The notes under the pieces: generated by a model
What the model saw: only the letters and a program-made list of their open reading frames with translations
Database searches by the model: none
What the model was told of the DNA's origin: nothing
Position numbers and translations under genes: made by a program
Shown here: piece after piece, positions 1 through 48,555 of the stretch
Position numbering within the stretch: position 1 is the stretch's first letter
How the letters are laid out: each line of letters starts with the position of its first letter
IMG/VR virus record: IMGVR_UViG_3300025323_000011
Location: 1 to 48,555 of that record
Strand: one strand, 5' to 3'
Length of the DNA: 48,555 bases
Origin: a virus

Positions 1-568
1 TCAAAGCGAAGACTAGGGGTCAGAGACGATGGGATTCTTCTTTCAGTCCCCTAGAAGTGGGCAAAAGATGGTTCTATTCCGAACTTTGGGGGCTAGCAGA
101 AGTGAAGACAAAGTATGGGTGGGAGACGAAGGCAATGAGAGACACACTAGGTCTCAAGAAGACTAGCAGGAAGATGGCAGAAGTATTTGAGGCGCACTGC
201 GTAGATTCATGGGTACTGGCATCATCTGCTGTTGGGGGAACAGTGCCGGACAATACGCGGCTGCTCTGCGTGACGCCGCTTCGATTTCATCGTCGTCAGC
301 TTCATAGATTTCAGCCCGATAAGGATGGAGTACGAAAACTTTACGGTGGAACACGAAGCCTTGGTTTCAAGAGGGGGTCAGTGGTAACACACTCGAAATG
401 GGGTGTCTGTTATGTGGGTGGGACGATGGGTGGTAGAATTAGTCTGCATTCGGAGGTGGATGGTAAAAGGCTTTGTCAGAACGCCGAGCCATCCGATTGT
501 AAGTTTCTGGCATATTCAAGTTGGAGGACGCGGCTTCTTCCCGGACTAAAGTCCGAGATTTCCGCCGT
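1..568 (+). mobile_element. Right-hand part of IsrB/OMEGA (IS200/IS605-like) element, copy 1
   Basis: The right end carries a perfect hairpin (CGGACTAAAGTCCG, 542-555), the counterpart of 47665-47678 in copy 2. Sequence similarity with copy 2 stops at the GTGA (569-572), which I take as the target-adjacent motif and the start of host phage DNA. The bases after it (GAGGAAGTT then ATG) form a plausible ribosome binding site for the next gene, so the insertion left its translation intact. No Y1 transposase is visible here; the left end is off the window. Confidence 0.7.
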
Positions 569-572
569 GTGA
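1..572 (+). CDS. isrB: IsrB-like RuvC nickase, C-terminal part (runs off the left edge)
   Basis: Open reading frame already open at base 3 and cut by the window edge. It aligns from its first codon with residue 208 onward of the complete IsrB at 46502-47695, about four-fifths identical by eye. The RuvC-III motif (EAHCVDSW) and the C-terminal domain (RRQLHRF, KLYGGTRSLGFKRG, YVGGTMGG, GKRLCQ) are present. The GTG at 57 is internal and should not be taken as the start. IsrB proteins are OMEGA nickases: a RuvC domain guided by an omega RNA, without the HNH domain of IscB. The stop TGA (570-572) lies in a GTGA that appears to be flanking target DNA. The next gene starts 7 nt later. The catalytic RuvC-I and RuvC-II motifs and the omega RNA lie outside the window, so activity cannot be judged. 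Confidence 0.85.
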   Translation, partial: KAKTRGQRRWDSSFSPLEVGKRWFYSELWGLAEVKTKYGWETKAMRDTLGLKKTSRKMAEVFEAHCVDSWVLASSAVGGTVPDNTRLLCVTPLRFHRRQLHRFQPDKDGVRKLYGGTRSLGFKRGSVVTHSKWGVCYVGGTMGGRISLHSEVDGKRLCQNAEPSDCKFLAYSSWRTRLLPGLKSEISAV

Positions 573-5090: not shown

Positions 5091-5498
5091 TTGGGTGAAT
5101 TATCACGAAAAGTTCAGGATATCTTACCCGGGCAAAAGGAGGTCTATGTCGAGATTTCCGGAGTAGGCACAGCGCTATCAGCCGGAACATTCATAGTTCT
5201 GAAACAGGTTTTATCGACCCCAACTAAAATTAATGCTGTGTCAATGAAACTCACGATCTCTGGGGGTACACCAGTAAATCCCGTGGCGAGGATAACCTCC
5301 CGTCCCGCCAATACTGGATCGTACGAAAAAATATTCCCCTTCGGTGCGTCGTTTGACGTCACATCAGGCAAGGAGGTGGTCCTTGAAAGAAAATTGACCA
5401 TTCCGCGAGGCAGGGATTATCAAATTGAAATGAAGGTGGATGTTACGGGCGGAGCGTCAGCAACCCTAGATTTCCTCAGGCTGGTTGAGGTGGGTTAA
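5091..5498 (+). CDS. Beta-sandwich virion protein, paralogue of 10042 and 48047 genes
   Basis: A 135-residue protein starting at TTG. Its two 137-residue paralogues also start TTG-GG. All three share the core (L/I)xISGGTPxxxVARI, then KIFPxxASFxVxSxxE, LTIPxxxDY and TGGASATL.F, a compact all-beta fold. Three copies in one window suggest a decoration, collar or fibre-adaptor protein that has been multiplied. The gene is followed after 2 nt by a fibre-like gene, just as the paralogues precede fibre-like genes. No enzyme motif. Confidence 0.6.
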   Translation: MGELSRKVQDILPGQKEVYVEISGVGTALSAGTFIVLKQVLSTPTKINAVSMKLTISGGTPVNPVARITSRPANTGSYEKIFPFGASFDVTSGKEVVLERKLTIPRGRDYQIEMKVDVTGGASATLDFLRLVEVG

Positions 5499-9666: not shown

Positions 9667-9705
9667 ACTAATCTTATTCAGTGAATTTCTTCGAGAGGCG
9701 CGAAG

Positions 9706-10026
9706 ATGGAAGATGAACTTATCCTAGACGAAATTGAGTGCGTCGATAGAACCCCCAACATGCTTGGCCGTAATGGGCTATTAATACAAATAATTAATGC
9801 GGGGATGCCGGTTACCGGAGCAGACGTTGAGGCCGTCGCAGACCTAAAAGATAAGATAAAAAATAATCGAGACGATAAACTTACATTCGATGAAATTGAT
9901 CGAATAAGTAATTTTTTTAGAGCACACGTCTGGAATTCTAACGGGGCCGAAGATTTGGCAGAAGTAAGCAGATATCTGGCCGATAAAATAAACACACTAA
10001 AATCAATCGATCAAAGTCCGGTGTAG
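9706..10026 (+). CDS. Helical protein of unknown function, 106 aa (copy A)
   Basis: ATG 9706 follows GAGAGG (9693-9698) at suitable spacing. The protein is acidic and mostly helical (ILDEIECVDRTPNMLGRNG, LTFDEIDRISNFFRAHVWN), with no known motif. A paralogue at 47702-48022 differs at the N-terminus (MEDELI here, MKSLTDELI there) because the sequence just before this point differs between the copies and an IsrB element sits upstream there. This copy is the unoccupied locus and shows the arrangement without the element. Role unknown; probably structural given its neighbours. Confidence 0.6.
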   Translation: MEDELILDEIECVDRTPNMLGRNGLLIQIINAGMPVTGADVEAVADLKDKIKNNRDDKLTFDEIDRISNFFRAHVWNSNGAEDLAEVSRYLADKINTLKSIDQSPV

Positions 10027-10039
10027 GATAAAAGGTAAT

Positions 10040-10550
10040 AATTGGGAAGACTAGATCGACTTGTTGATGAGATAGAATCCGGACAAAGTGAGGTCCGAAC
10101 TGAAGAATCAGGATCATCCACACCGTTAGTAGCATCGTCTTGGGTTTCAATTTTCTCGTTTATATCCACAGTAACTAAGCTACATGTTAGGGGACTAAAA
10201 ATAGACATATCTGGCGGCACTCCGACGGCGCTAGTAGCCAGAATCGTGGCTGGTCCGACTGGTGGGCCGCTCGTAAAGATTTTTCCATCGTCCGCGTCCT
10301 TTACAGTCGTAAGTAGTCGAGAAGAAACCCTGAGACACGAATTGACCATACCAAAAGATTACGATTACGAAGTGCAAGTAAATTGTACCGCTACTGGCGG
10401 AGCTTCCGCTACTTTGTCATTTTTAAGCATCACGGAAATAAATAAGGCCAGCTAGTGTCTGACATAGATTTTGTAAGGGAAATAAAACAAGTACAGGAGG
10501 AGGGGGCAAATCTAACCCTTCGTCCAACAATCAATTTTATTGGTAGCAAT
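10040..10550 (+). repeat. Long direct repeat, copy A (511 bp within the window)
   Basis: Nearly identical to 48045-48555 without any gap, with roughly twenty base differences by eye, mostly silent in the 137-aa gene. The first 96 nt of the next gene are identical up to the window edge. Copy B is cut by the edge, so the true length is greater. The high identity suggests recent duplication or gene conversion. Confidence 0.9.
10042..10455 (+). CDS. Beta-sandwich virion protein, 137 aa (copy A)
   Basis: TTG start (AATTGGGAAGACTAG), after AAAAGG. The TAG stop overlaps the GTG start of the next gene (TAGTG). The product differs from the copy at 48047 at about four residues (SFTVVSSREE here, SFAIVSGREE there, and Q/E in EVQV) and is a more distant paralogue of the 5091 product. 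It shares the ISGGTP, KIFP..ASF, LTIP and TGGASATLSF blocks. A compact all-beta virion or adaptor protein is the best reading; no catalytic motif. Confidence 0.65.
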   Translation: MGRLDRLVDEIESGQSEVRTEESGSSTPLVASSWVSIFSFISTVTKLHVRGLKIDISGGTPTALVARIVAGPTGGPLVKIFPSSASFTVVSSREETLRHELTIPKDYDYEVQVNCTATGGASATLSFLSITEINKAS

Positions 10551-12641: not shown

Positions 12642-12830
12642 ATGATTAGATCCCGTAAATTATCTACTGCTATATTGCTTTTTATCCTTGCAGTTGTTGG
12701 GGGAACAGACGTATATTTTGCTTCTGATGATGCAAAAAGTAACACATACAGTGAAATAATCCTTTCGACAGCCCACAAATATCCGATACCGCCATTCGCT
12801 GTTGGTGTCCTTTCGGGCCACAAGAAATAA
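12642..12830 (+). CDS. Small single-pass membrane protein (holin-like candidate), 62 aa
   Basis: Basic N-terminus (MIRSRK), then one hydrophobic helix at residues 8-22 (STAILLFILAVVGGT), then a soluble part ending in YPIPPFAVGVLSGHKK. Short phage membrane proteins with a PIPPFAxGVLxGH-type ending are often found beside lysis or virion enzymes. The neighbouring 13354 gene encodes a probable hydrolase, which makes a lysis role possible. With one transmembrane segment it could be a class III holin or a membrane anchor. No clear ribosome binding site; start fairly uncertain. Confidence 0.45.
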   Translation: MIRSRKLSTAILLFILAVVGGTDVYFASDDAKSNTYSEIILSTAHKYPIPPFAVGVLSGHKK

Positions 12831-12834
12831 AAAT

Positions 12835-13326
12835 ATGACCAAAAAGATAAAATTAACGATGGGATATGAGGCCGACGTGGATGACGACGACTTTGATCGA
12901 CTAAAAGACTTTTCGTGGCAGGCTGACGTAAGAAAGAGTGGGCAAGTTTATGCCACGCGTAAACTACCAAGAAACGGTGGAAAACTTCGAAAGCTATATA
13001 TGCATCACGATATAATGGCTCGTGAGCCACCCCTTGTCGTGGATCACATTAATGGCCATACACTAGATAATCAAAAAATTAACTTGCGTCTCTGTAGCCA
13101 CGCCGAAAACATAAAAAATCAAAAATTGCGCTCTGACAATACTAGCGGGGCTTGTGGGGTTAGATGGCACAGGGAAAAGAATCTTTGGCAGGCTTATATA
13201 AAAGTCAACGGGCAGTCGACACATCTTGGTTATTTTGGGTCTTTTGACGACGCCGTGGCAGCTCGTAAACAAAGAGAAATCAAACTAAATTGGGTTAAAC
13301 GAAGAGAGAACGCTCATTGTGGGTAA
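12835..13326 (+). CDS. HNH homing endonuclease with AP2 DNA-binding domain
   Basis: ATG 12835 lies 4 nt after the previous stop and is preferred over an upstream in-frame TTG. Residues about 60-105 hold the HNH core: MHHDIM, then VVDHINGHTLDNQKINLR and NIKNQKL, matching the phage HNH pattern DHInG..lDNR.sNLR....qN..N. Residues about 110-155 match an AP2 domain (GVRWHREKNLWQAYIKVNG, LGYFGSFDDAVAARKQRE). Such free-standing enzymes cut phage DNA and spread their own gene by homing. All key histidine and asparagine residues appear intact. It is unrelated to the neighbouring virion genes and is probably a selfish insertion. Confidence 0.88.
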   Translation: MTKKIKLTMGYEADVDDDDFDRLKDFSWQADVRKSGQVYATRKLPRNGGKLRKLYMHHDIMAREPPLVVDHINGHTLDNQKINLRLCSHAENIKNQKLRSDNTSGACGVRWHREKNLWQAYIKVNGQSTHLGYFGSFDDAVAARKQREIKLNWVKRRENAHCG

Positions 13327-46372: not shown

Positions 46373-46402
46373 ACTAATCTTACACAGTGGATTTCTTCGA
46401 GA

Positions 46403-46660
46403 GGCCCGAAGATGCAAGGTCAACTACCCCCGGCTAAAGCCGAGGGCTTGTGAGAAGTAGCAAAGCCGATACGAAACGAACAAGTTAAAAAGGAGACTAG
46501 AGTGGCCAAGATCGGCTCGCAAGAGGTCGTTAGAAGGCGACTGAACCACCTGCCCGTGGCAGGGCAAGACACGAGGGGGATGCTCCCCAAGTTCCTCTCC
46601 TCTGTGGTGGTCAGTCTCGATGGGGTGTATACACCTGTTTTCGGTCAGGGCTTACAGCAG
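46403..46660 (+). ncRNA. Omega RNA (HEARO-type) of the IsrB element, guide at its 5' end
   Basis: Expected position for an IscB/IsrB omega RNA: it starts in flanking DNA (guide 46403-46418) and continues into the element. Stem 1 CCCCCGGC/GCCGAGGG (46427-46434 with 46439-46446, one mismatch, TAAA loop). Further perfect stems: CCTGCC-CGT-GGCAGG (46549-46563), GGGGA-TGC-TCCCC (46576-46588) and GGTGTATACACC (46624-46635). The last three lie inside the reading frame upstream of the PLMP motif, so RNA and the apparent coding start overlap. The 3' end is approximate. Length near 260 nt agrees with IsrB-type omega RNAs. Confidence 0.7.
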
Positions 46661-47691
46661 AAAAACCGTGTTTACGTTCCGGTCGTTTCGAATGGTAGGC
46701 CGTTGATGCCGACTACGGAGTCACGGGCTAGGCGGTGGATCAGATCTGGTAAAGCGACTCCGTTCTGGTCGAAAGGAGTGTTCTGTATTCGATTGAATCA
46801 AGAACCGAGTGCGAAGAATGTCCAACCCGTCGCTTGTGGAATTGATCCCGGATCAAAGAAAGAAGGATTTACTGTCAAGTCAGAAACTATGACTTTTCTG
46901 AACATTCAGACCGACGCGGTGACGTGGGTGAAGGATGCGGTGGAAGTACGTCGGAATATGCGTAGAAGTAGAAGATTCAGAAACACTCCGTGTCGAGCAA
47001 ACAGAAAGAATCGGGCTCGTGGTGGTATCCCTCCATCCACGAAAGCACGGTGGCAGTGGAAGCTGAGAATAACGAGATGGCTCTGCCATATCTACCCTAT
47101 TTCTGTCTTTGTGGTCGAAGATATCAAAGCGAGAACTAAAGGACAGAGGCGATGGGATGCCTCTTTCTCACCGCTCGAAGTCGGTAAAAAATGGTTCTAT
47201 AAAGAATTGTCTGAACTCGCCAAAGTAGTGACGAAAAGTGGTTGGGAAACGAAGGAGATGCGGGACGCGCTGGGGCTCAAAAAGACGGGCAATAAGATGG
47301 CGGAGGTCTTTGAGGCTCACTGTGTAGATTCGTGGGTGCTGGCATCTAGCGCGGTCGGGGGGGCTGTGCCGGATAATACGAGACTTTTTTGTGCGACGCC
47401 GCTCCGATTCCATCGTCGTCAACTACACAGATTTAAGCCCGAAAATGGCGGCATACGAAAACTCTACGGCGGGACTCGGAGTCTCGGCTTCAAGCGTGGA
47501 TCACTTGTAAAGCACCCGAAATGGGGCATCTGTTACGTAGGTGGTACTATGGGGGGCAAGATTAGTCTGCATTCTGTTGAAAGTGGTAAGCGGCTTTGTC
47601 AGAAAGCCGAGCCATCCGATTGCAAGTTTCTGACATATTCGAGTTGGAGGACGCGGTTTCTCCACGGACTGAAGTCCGGGGTTTCCGCCGC
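46419..47691 (+). mobile_element. Complete IsrB/OMEGA element (IS200/IS605-like, no transposase), copy 2
   Basis: Left end at GTCAACTACCCCCGG with the subterminal stem 46427-46446; right end at GTTTCCGCCGC with the stem CGGACTGAAGTCCG (47665-47678), followed by GTGA (47692-47695). Similarity to copy 1 stops at GTGA. The flanks match the unoccupied paralogue: left flank 46403-46418 against 9697-9712, and the right side resumes at ATGAACTTATCC (47718 against 9713). The 26 bp between GTGA and ATGAAC are absent from the paralogue and contain AAGGTGA-6 nt-ATG once the left flank is rejoined, a good native ribosome binding site; so I place them in the phage, not in the element. No TnpA is present, so mobility would need a Y1 transposase in trans. 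Confidence 0.8.
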
Positions 47692-47695
47692 GTGA
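46502..47695 (+). CDS. isrB: IsrB: RuvC-only RNA-guided nickase of an OMEGA system, 397 aa as called
   Basis: PLMP motif at residues 67-70 with RARRWIRSGKA, RuvC-I at 113-118 (GIDPGS, catalytic D115), arginine-rich bridge helix at 150-160 (RRNMRRSRRFR), RuvC-II at 203-208 (VVEDI, E206), RuvC-III at 271-278 (EAHCVDSW, H273 and D276), then the C-terminal TAM-interacting domain. Only about 65 residues separate RuvC-II and RuvC-III, with no HNH, so it is IsrB not IscB. All three RuvC motifs are intact. AGGAG precedes GTG 46502, but the first ~50 residues overlap omega RNA stems; a start near GTG 46625 would give about 355 aa, the usual IsrB size. The stop TGA is supplied by the flanking GTGA. Confidence 0.88.
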   Translation: MAKIGSQEVVRRRLNHLPVAGQDTRGMLPKFLSSVVVSLDGVYTPVFGQGLQQKNRVYVPVVSNGRPLMPTTESRARRWIRSGKATPFWSKGVFCIRLNQEPSAKNVQPVACGIDPGSKKEGFTVKSETMTFLNIQTDAVTWVKDAVEVRRNMRRSRRFRNTPCRANRKNRARGGIPPSTKARWQWKLRITRWLCHIYPISVFVVEDIKARTKGQRRWDASFSPLEVGKKWFYKELSELAKVVTKSGWETKEMRDALGLKKTGNKMAEVFEAHCVDSWVLASSAVGGAVPDNTRLFCATPLRFHRRQLHRFKPENGGIRKLYGGTRSLGFKRGSLVKHPKWGICYVGGTMGGKISLHSVESGKRLCQKAEPSDCKFLTYSSWRTRFLHGLKSGVSAA

Positions 47696-47701
47696 TATAT
47701 T

Positions 47702-48022
47702 ATGAAGTCTCTCACAGATGAACTTATCCTAGATGAAATTGAATGCGTTGATAGAACTTCCAACATGCTTGGGCACAACGGACTATTGATACAAATAATT
47801 AATGCGGGGATGCCGGTTACCGGTGCAGACGTTGAAGCCGTCGCAGACATAAAAGGTAAGATAAAAAATAATCAAGATGATAAACTTACATTCGATGAAA
47901 TTGATCGAATAAGCAAGTATTTTATGGCGCACGTCTGGAACTCGAACGGTGCCGAAGACTTGGCGAAAGTTAGTAGGTATCTAGCAAATAAACTAGAAGC
48001 GTTGAAATCACACAACAACTAA
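47702..48022 (+). CDS. Helical protein of unknown function, 106 aa (copy B)
   Basis: Paralogue of 9706-10026; same length, with about a dozen substitutions and a different start (MKSLTDELILDE against MEDELILDE). The present ribosome binding region between the element and the ATG is GTGATATATT. Without the element the left flank would supply AAG just before it, making AAGGTGA six bases from the ATG. Insertion has therefore split or weakened the original ribosome binding site; translation may now depend on coupling to the isrB stop, 6 nt upstream. Function unknown. Confidence 0.6.
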   Translation: MKSLTDELILDEIECVDRTSNMLGHNGLLIQIINAGMPVTGADVEAVADIKGKIKNNQDDKLTFDEIDRISKYFMAHVWNSNGAEDLAKVSRYLANKLEALKSHNN

Positions 48023-48046: not shown

Positions 48047-48460
48047 TTGGGAAGACTAGATCGACTTGTTGATGAGATAGAATCCGGACAAAGTGAGGTC
48101 CGAACTGAGGAATCAGGATCATCCACACCGTTAGTGGCGTCGTCTTGGGTTTCAATTTTCTCGTTTATATCCACAGTAACTAAGCTCCATGTTAGGGGAC
48201 TAAAAATAGACATATCTGGCGGCACTCCGACGGCGCTAGTAGCCAGAATCGTGGCTGGACCGACTGGGGGGCCGCTCGTAAAGATTTTTCCATCGTCCGC
48301 CTCTTTTGCAATCGTAAGTGGTCGAGAAGAAACATTGAGACATGAATTGACCATACCAAAAGATTACGATTACGAAGTGGAAGTAAATTGCACCGCTACT
48401 GGCGGAGCTTCCGCTACTTTGTCATTTCTAAGCATCACGGAAATAAATAAGGCCAGCTAG
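48047..48460 (+). CDS. Beta-sandwich virion protein, 137 aa (copy B)
   Basis: TTG start. Differs from the 10042 copy at about four residues (SFAIVSGREE, EVEV), and most base differences are silent, so the protein is under purifying selection. TAG stop overlaps the next GTG. No obvious ribosome binding site is visible before the TTG here (ACACAACACAA), whereas copy A has AAAAGG; expression of this copy may differ. Same presumed adaptor or decoration role. Confidence 0.65.
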   Translation: MGRLDRLVDEIESGQSEVRTEESGSSTPLVASSWVSIFSFISTVTKLHVRGLKIDISGGTPTALVARIVAGPTGGPLVKIFPSSASFAIVSGREETLRHELTIPKDYDYEVEVNCTATGGASATLSFLSITEINKAS

Positions 48461-48555
48461 TGTCTGACATAGATTTTGTAAGGGAAATAAAACAAGTACA
48501 GGAGGAGGGGGCAAATCTAACCCTTCGTCCAACAATCAATTTTATTGGTAGCAAT
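48460..48555 (+). CDS. Fibre-associated protein, partial (runs off the right edge)
   Basis: The 32 codons present (SDIDFVREIKQVQEEGANL, LRPTINFIGSN) are identical in DNA to the start of the 10455 gene. GTG start overlaps the previous stop (TAGTG). The rest lies outside the window, so whether the full gene is duplicated cannot be seen. Confidence 0.6.
   Translation, partial: MSDIDFVREIKQVQEEGANLTLRPTINFIGSN

Follow-up and report, generated by a model that had tools for sequence, protein, structure and literature searches.

The window, a viral DNA record of 48,555 nt, carries an element that by homology is a further member of the IsrB/HEARO OMEGA elements, in a tailed-phage record (Table 1). 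The best explanation, which we consider likely, is that this element is guided to the element-free allele of its own site; the match of its guide to a paralogous cassette would be passive, and the paralogue is probably a poor target. The element ends, the IsrB family, the RNA scaffold, the geometry of guide and TAM and the paralogy of the cassettes were read from the sequence.

Table 1. Features of the window, in order of position
Feature	Position	Strand	Remarks
Second IsrB copy, cut by record start	3..572	+	81% identical, at another site
Paralogous protospacer	9693..9712	+	18/20 vs guide, mismatches at TAM positions 13 and 4
Paralogous 106-aa gene without element (MEDELILDE...)	9706..10026	+	
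ATGA beside paralogous protospacer	9713..9716	+	inside paralogous gene, whose start codon is ATG 9706
Putative omega RNA guide, left flank	46399..46418	+	20 nt, directly 5' of HEARO match starting at 46419
IsrB/HEARO element, 1283 bp: omega RNA, IsrB ORF, right-end hairpin	46419..47701	+	both ends as in relatives
Omega RNA scaffold	46419..46689	+	RF02033 HEARO full model 1-211, 28.2 bits, E 4e-4; overlaps 5' part of IsrB frame
IsrB open frame, GTG start possible	46502..47695	+	PLMP from about 46670; RuvC D, E, D; no HNH
Right-end hairpin CGGAC-TGAA-GTCCG, then GGGTTTCCGCCGCG	47665..47678	+	hairpin read from sequence; similar in relatives
Cognate TAM ATGA of occupied site	47702..47705	+	start codon ATG of downstream gene plus A
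106-aa gene behind element (MKSLTDELILDE...)	47702..48022	+	without Pfam or PHROG match
127 nt identical to 10424-10550, ending record	48429..48555	+	likely assembly k-mer junction

The IsrB open frame matched DtIsrB of Desulfovirgula thermocuniculi (PDB 8dmb; PMC9581776) with E 7e-44, or 2e-57 in a profile search, and the Pfam family RRXRR with 6.6e-32. It has a PLMP and the RuvC I-III catalytic D/E/D residues and no HNH; D59, E150 and D220 were invariant in 18 aligned sequences (alignment A1). DtIsrB shares this layout, an NTGA-type TAM and a roughly 270-nt omega RNA upstream. Unlike DtIsrB, the window element is phage-borne, its omega RNA overlaps the IsrB frame and the RNA is only a sub-threshold HEARO match. 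The missing HNH also separates the protein from IscB, which has this domain and cuts both strands. With HEARO RNA (RF02033) and the IscB/HEARO nucleases, the element shares an RNA architecture that starts at the element edge and a guide apparently taken from the left flank. The RRXRR proteins of the Microcystis phages LMM01 and MaMV are likewise phage-encoded relatives, but with about 37% identity and from another phage group. The earlier note's reading of this stretch as an OMEGA unit is borne out, as an IsrB type, by the DtIsrB homology without HNH and by the HEARO RNA at the edge.

That edge had been placed at 46419, exactly where the HEARO (RF02033) match begins. The match came from a relaxed Rfam search and its 28.2 bits lie below the gathering score of 83; at the gathering threshold, Rfam gave no match. 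An alignment of 22 sequences showed compensatory changes in 25 of the 32 pairs predicted. The left end, GTCAACYACC, is common to relatives whose left flanks are unrelated, and most relatives share both ends and have elements 1216-1360 bp long. The HEARO-type RNA lies upstream, and the putative guide adjoins its 5' edge. Since no ATG lies near the PLMP start, IsrB translation probably begins inside the omega RNA, which overlaps the IsrB frame at 46502-46689. A similar arrangement was seen in L003, L012 and L013. A scan for promoters and terminators gave results at about chance level.

It is improbable that the element is an inactive remnant carried along by the phage. The HEARO score under the gathering cut-off would fit this, as would the lack of a Y1 transposase (PF01797) in the record. 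However, the IsrB frame is open, the catalytic and TAM residues are conserved, both ends are present and the RNA helices covary. Most related records likewise lack a Y1 transposase, which was found in 4 of 19 records and there no closer than 6 kb to the IsrB gene. The second IsrB copy has a right end followed by ATGA at 580; it too precedes a start codon, its own stop lying 7 nt ahead of that codon.

Many relatives have a right end made up of the hairpin, TTTCC and 12-18 nt, after which comes ATGA or ATGG, in most cases as the start codon of the following gene. Because the relatives show this same layout, the element most likely ends at 47701, with the cognate TAM at 47702-47705. The most likely cognate junction would then be 46418|47702, immediately ahead of the ATG that starts the 106-aa gene. 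A boundary at 47717, which puts ATGA in register with 9713, is less likely: it lies 31 nt after TTTCC, as opposed to 12-18 nt in most relatives with the motif.

Judging from many phage and bacterial relatives, sitting before a start codon appears to be a common placement. Our hand-set boundaries were placed by eye, using whichever fitting ATG came first beyond the right end, and their table is therefore no unbiased test. A scripted search of 24 viral loci found 11 right ends, all 11 with ATG and 10 of them opening a frame of at least 50 aa. Among bacteria, right ends were found in 42 of 78 loci; ATG was present at 33 of these 42, and 28 of 42 began a frame of at least 50 aa with ATG, GTG or TTG. 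For comparison, roughly one in three ATG[A/G] in these loci opens a frame of this kind (binomial p 1e-4 and 1e-5, indicative only, since the loci are related to one another and the script, too, demanded NTG[A/G] at a fixed distance). For L011, the element-free homologues L144, L145 and L149 can be aligned across the joined flanks as far as the ATG; for L028, homologues start near the same place without a clean alignment. L013 has no right-end hairpin and carries CCGACCG on both sides of the element (1206 and 2454), like a short target duplication. In the literature searched, we found no direct report of an IsrB or HEARO with start-codon insertion. HEARO RNAs were reportedly described in 2009 as inserting beside ATGA or GTGA; part of the start-codon rule may therefore be known already.

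The proposed TAM agrees with the residues predicted to read it. KRLCQ of the window protein aligns with KRIGQ of DtIsrB (R323 and Q326, numbered with an offset of 150 from the 8dmb chain), which places an Arg and a Gln where DtIsrB has these two TAM residues. In DtIsrB, Q326 reads TAM base 4, and Q326R also accepts G (PMC9581776). Among the relatives, Q occurred with A in 16 of 17 cases and R or K with G in five of six (Fisher p 0.001, relatedness ignored), the exceptions being L022 and L012. This count leaves out L016, which has L, and includes boundaries without a right-end motif in L012, L013, L018 and L020; the strict set with both ends gave 12 Q-A and two R/K-G (p 0.011). These sequences suggest that A or G at TAM base 4 mostly goes with Q or R/K, respectively, as the TAM-reading residue, and the window combines an NTGA-type TAM with the matching residues.

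The earlier note took the 16 nt left of the element as the guide and described a two-mismatch match in the paralogous cassette, followed by an NTGA TAM. The two sequences, GGCCCGAAGATGCAAG at 46403-46418 and GGCGCGAAGATGGAAG at 9697-9712, read as claimed, and ATGA stands directly 3' of the latter. The 16 nt occupy the place expected of a guide, directly 5' of the HEARO match, and form part of the putative 20-nt guide; DtIsrB uses 20 nt (PMC9581776). In the 48,555-nt record, the paralogous site was the only one with up to four mismatches and NTG[A/G]. Shuffled guides gave 0.05 such sites, so the match is not due to chance. The left flanks of the occupied and the paralogous site are identical at 89 of 98 positions (91%, nine differences), and at this divergence the probability of two or fewer mismatches in 16 nt is 0.82. 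The guide is conserved no better than the surrounding flank. Since the flanks are homologous and two mismatches are expected at that divergence, the match is no independent evidence of targeting. Going by these flanks, the resemblance of 9697-9712 is a passive outcome of cassette duplication, expected from duplication alone.

We also tested 19 other guides, 17 against whole records and two (L006 and L018) against the fetched locus only. Within this scope, none had a target with two or fewer mismatches. Most had no match at up to four mismatches, and the remainder had weak matches with three or four: two each for L007 (shuffled 0.20) and L013 (shuffled 0.35), one each for L010 and L014, and eight for the A-rich guide of L029 (shuffled 2.85). 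These were near shuffled levels in most and above them in L007, L013, L014 and L029. As nothing comparable occurred among the 19 guides, the two-mismatch match is tied to the cassette duplication of the window.

The earlier note went on to propose that the unit could nick the paralogous locus, allowing homing or gene conversion between the cassettes. A complex that nicks the paralogue despite two mismatches would find a correct TAM, an 18/20 match, homologous arms on both sides and an unoccupied target, and nicks can provoke recombination, which here would drive element homing or cassette gene conversion. However, TAM positions 4 and 13 lie in a stretch where relatives tolerate mismatches poorly. 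In OgeuIscB, cleavage is lost when mismatches fall at positions 1-14 (PMC9640706), and HEARO MG35-1 has low mismatch tolerance through position 13 (PMC9755519), both values being for HNH-bearing IscB and HEARO nucleases, not for IsrB. Because both mismatches fall within these ranges, the paralogous copy is predicted to be a poor target, probably weak or non-functional, at which a weak effect is possible. The proposed nicking is thus not supported.

Neither is homing or conversion. Identity between the cassettes is 91% to the left of the site; to its right it is 72-92% per 100 nt over the first 300 nt and rises to 94-100% only at 400-840 nt downstream; along the left flank and in 100-nt steps to the right, no local homogenisation around the site was seen. 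Conversion is expected to leave high identity there, so the lower identity beside the site counts against it, and duplication alone accounts for the similarity. The paralogue is also still empty, and the other guides examined have no comparable match. Taken together, we regard nicking with homing or conversion as improbable.

Binding of the paralogue without efficient nicking could in principle repress it, as nuclease-dead TnpB-like repressors do, and the site spans the ribosome-binding region and start codon of the paralogous gene. We consider this very improbable: the RuvC catalytic residues are intact, nothing ties expression of the two genes together, and the mismatches should weaken binding too.

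Both cassettes stand behind tail-fibre genes. Joined without the element, the sites read GATGCAAG|ATGAAGTCTCTCACAGATGAAC (occupied) and GATGGAAG|ATGAAC (paralogue). The occupied copy has an extra 16 nt (47702-47717 compared with 9713), between two AGATGAA copies at the TAM. These were either lost from the paralogue between the repeats or gained by the occupied copy with the element. In the occupied copy, ATG 47702 gives the right frame, while the guide's ATG in the joined sequence runs into a stop. Because of the 16-nt difference behind ATGA, the exact pre-insertion sequence is uncertain. The 106-aa protein had no relatives in IMG/VR, INPHARED or GTDB, the 137-aa protein (10042-10455) had none in IMG/VR, the one database searched for it, and the exact DNA pattern GCACGCAAATGTCTTTA did not occur in IMG/VR. 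These searches yielded no element-free allele of this very locus, and no relatives of the cassette in which occupation of both copies could be looked for. By eye, the 137-aa protein and a 135-aa protein (5091-5498) look like a further paralogous pair. An HNH endonuclease at 12802-13326, with a weak AP2-like match, is perhaps a conventional homing endonuclease.

The last 127 nt of the record are an exact copy of 10424-10550, part of the paralogous cassette. This length is a typical assembler k-mer size, and the repeat is likely an assembly k-mer junction, the assembler link being our reading of the length. The cassettes might thus stem from different genomes, or the record be mis-joined, so that guide and paralogue never met in one cell. 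We think this unlikely, though somewhat less so than nicking of the paralogue. GC is fairly even along the record; neck, sheath, tape measure, baseplate and tail-fibre genes all lie on one strand; and the 38-kb loop has no capsid or terminase gene among the proteins tested, which makes it unlikely to be a closed genome by itself. The presence of both cassettes in one genome is therefore likely but rests on the assembly, since the record ends in the 127-nt copy.

We return to the element-free allele of the element's own site as the preferred target. The omega RNA would take 16-20 nt of the left flank as guide, and the complex, a RuvC nickase without HNH, would recognize the allele in which the guide is followed by ATGA. 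At the occupied locus the left flank is followed by GTCA, not NTGA, and the element should therefore not target it. Insertion would most likely have separated the 5' leader of the 106-aa gene from the start codon, this codon and the next A forming the TAM. TnpB acts on element-free site copies in plasmid populations (PMC11870625); in both systems the guide would record the insertion site, although TnpB makes double-strand breaks and IsrB is a nickase. By this analogy, the element would probably disfavour element-free copies of the same locus, leading to retention or gene-drive-like spread. Expression, nicking, such retention or drive and poor use of the mismatched site are what we infer.

The IsrB stop (47693-47695) lies 6 nt before the TAM/start codon at 47702. 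With boundaries placed automatically, 10 of 16 viral loci but one of 44 bacterial loci had the stop no more than 8 nt from the boundary ATG (p 1e-6, relatedness ignored); with hand-set boundaries, this held for 16 of 24 viral loci. Downstream genes in the relatives include those for head morphogenesis, portal, baseplate hub, DNA polymerase and thymidylate kinase. We tentatively propose, at somewhat less than even confidence, that phage IsrB forms a start-codon-targeting mobile lineage. Its TAM would be ATG plus A/G and its guide the ribosome-binding region, and the IsrB stop would restore translation of the split gene by stop-start coupling, making insertion harmless before essential phage genes, with the element acting against element-free phages.

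The claim about the paralogue is itself modest in reach. The residue-TAM pattern lends support from natural sequences to the idea that a single residue sets TAM base 4, and the wider start-codon pattern yields a rule, open to testing, on which sites in compact phage genomes can harbour IsrB elements. Should the element put element-free phages at a disadvantage in co-infection, IsrB would amount to a phage gene drive that works through an RNA-guided nickase.
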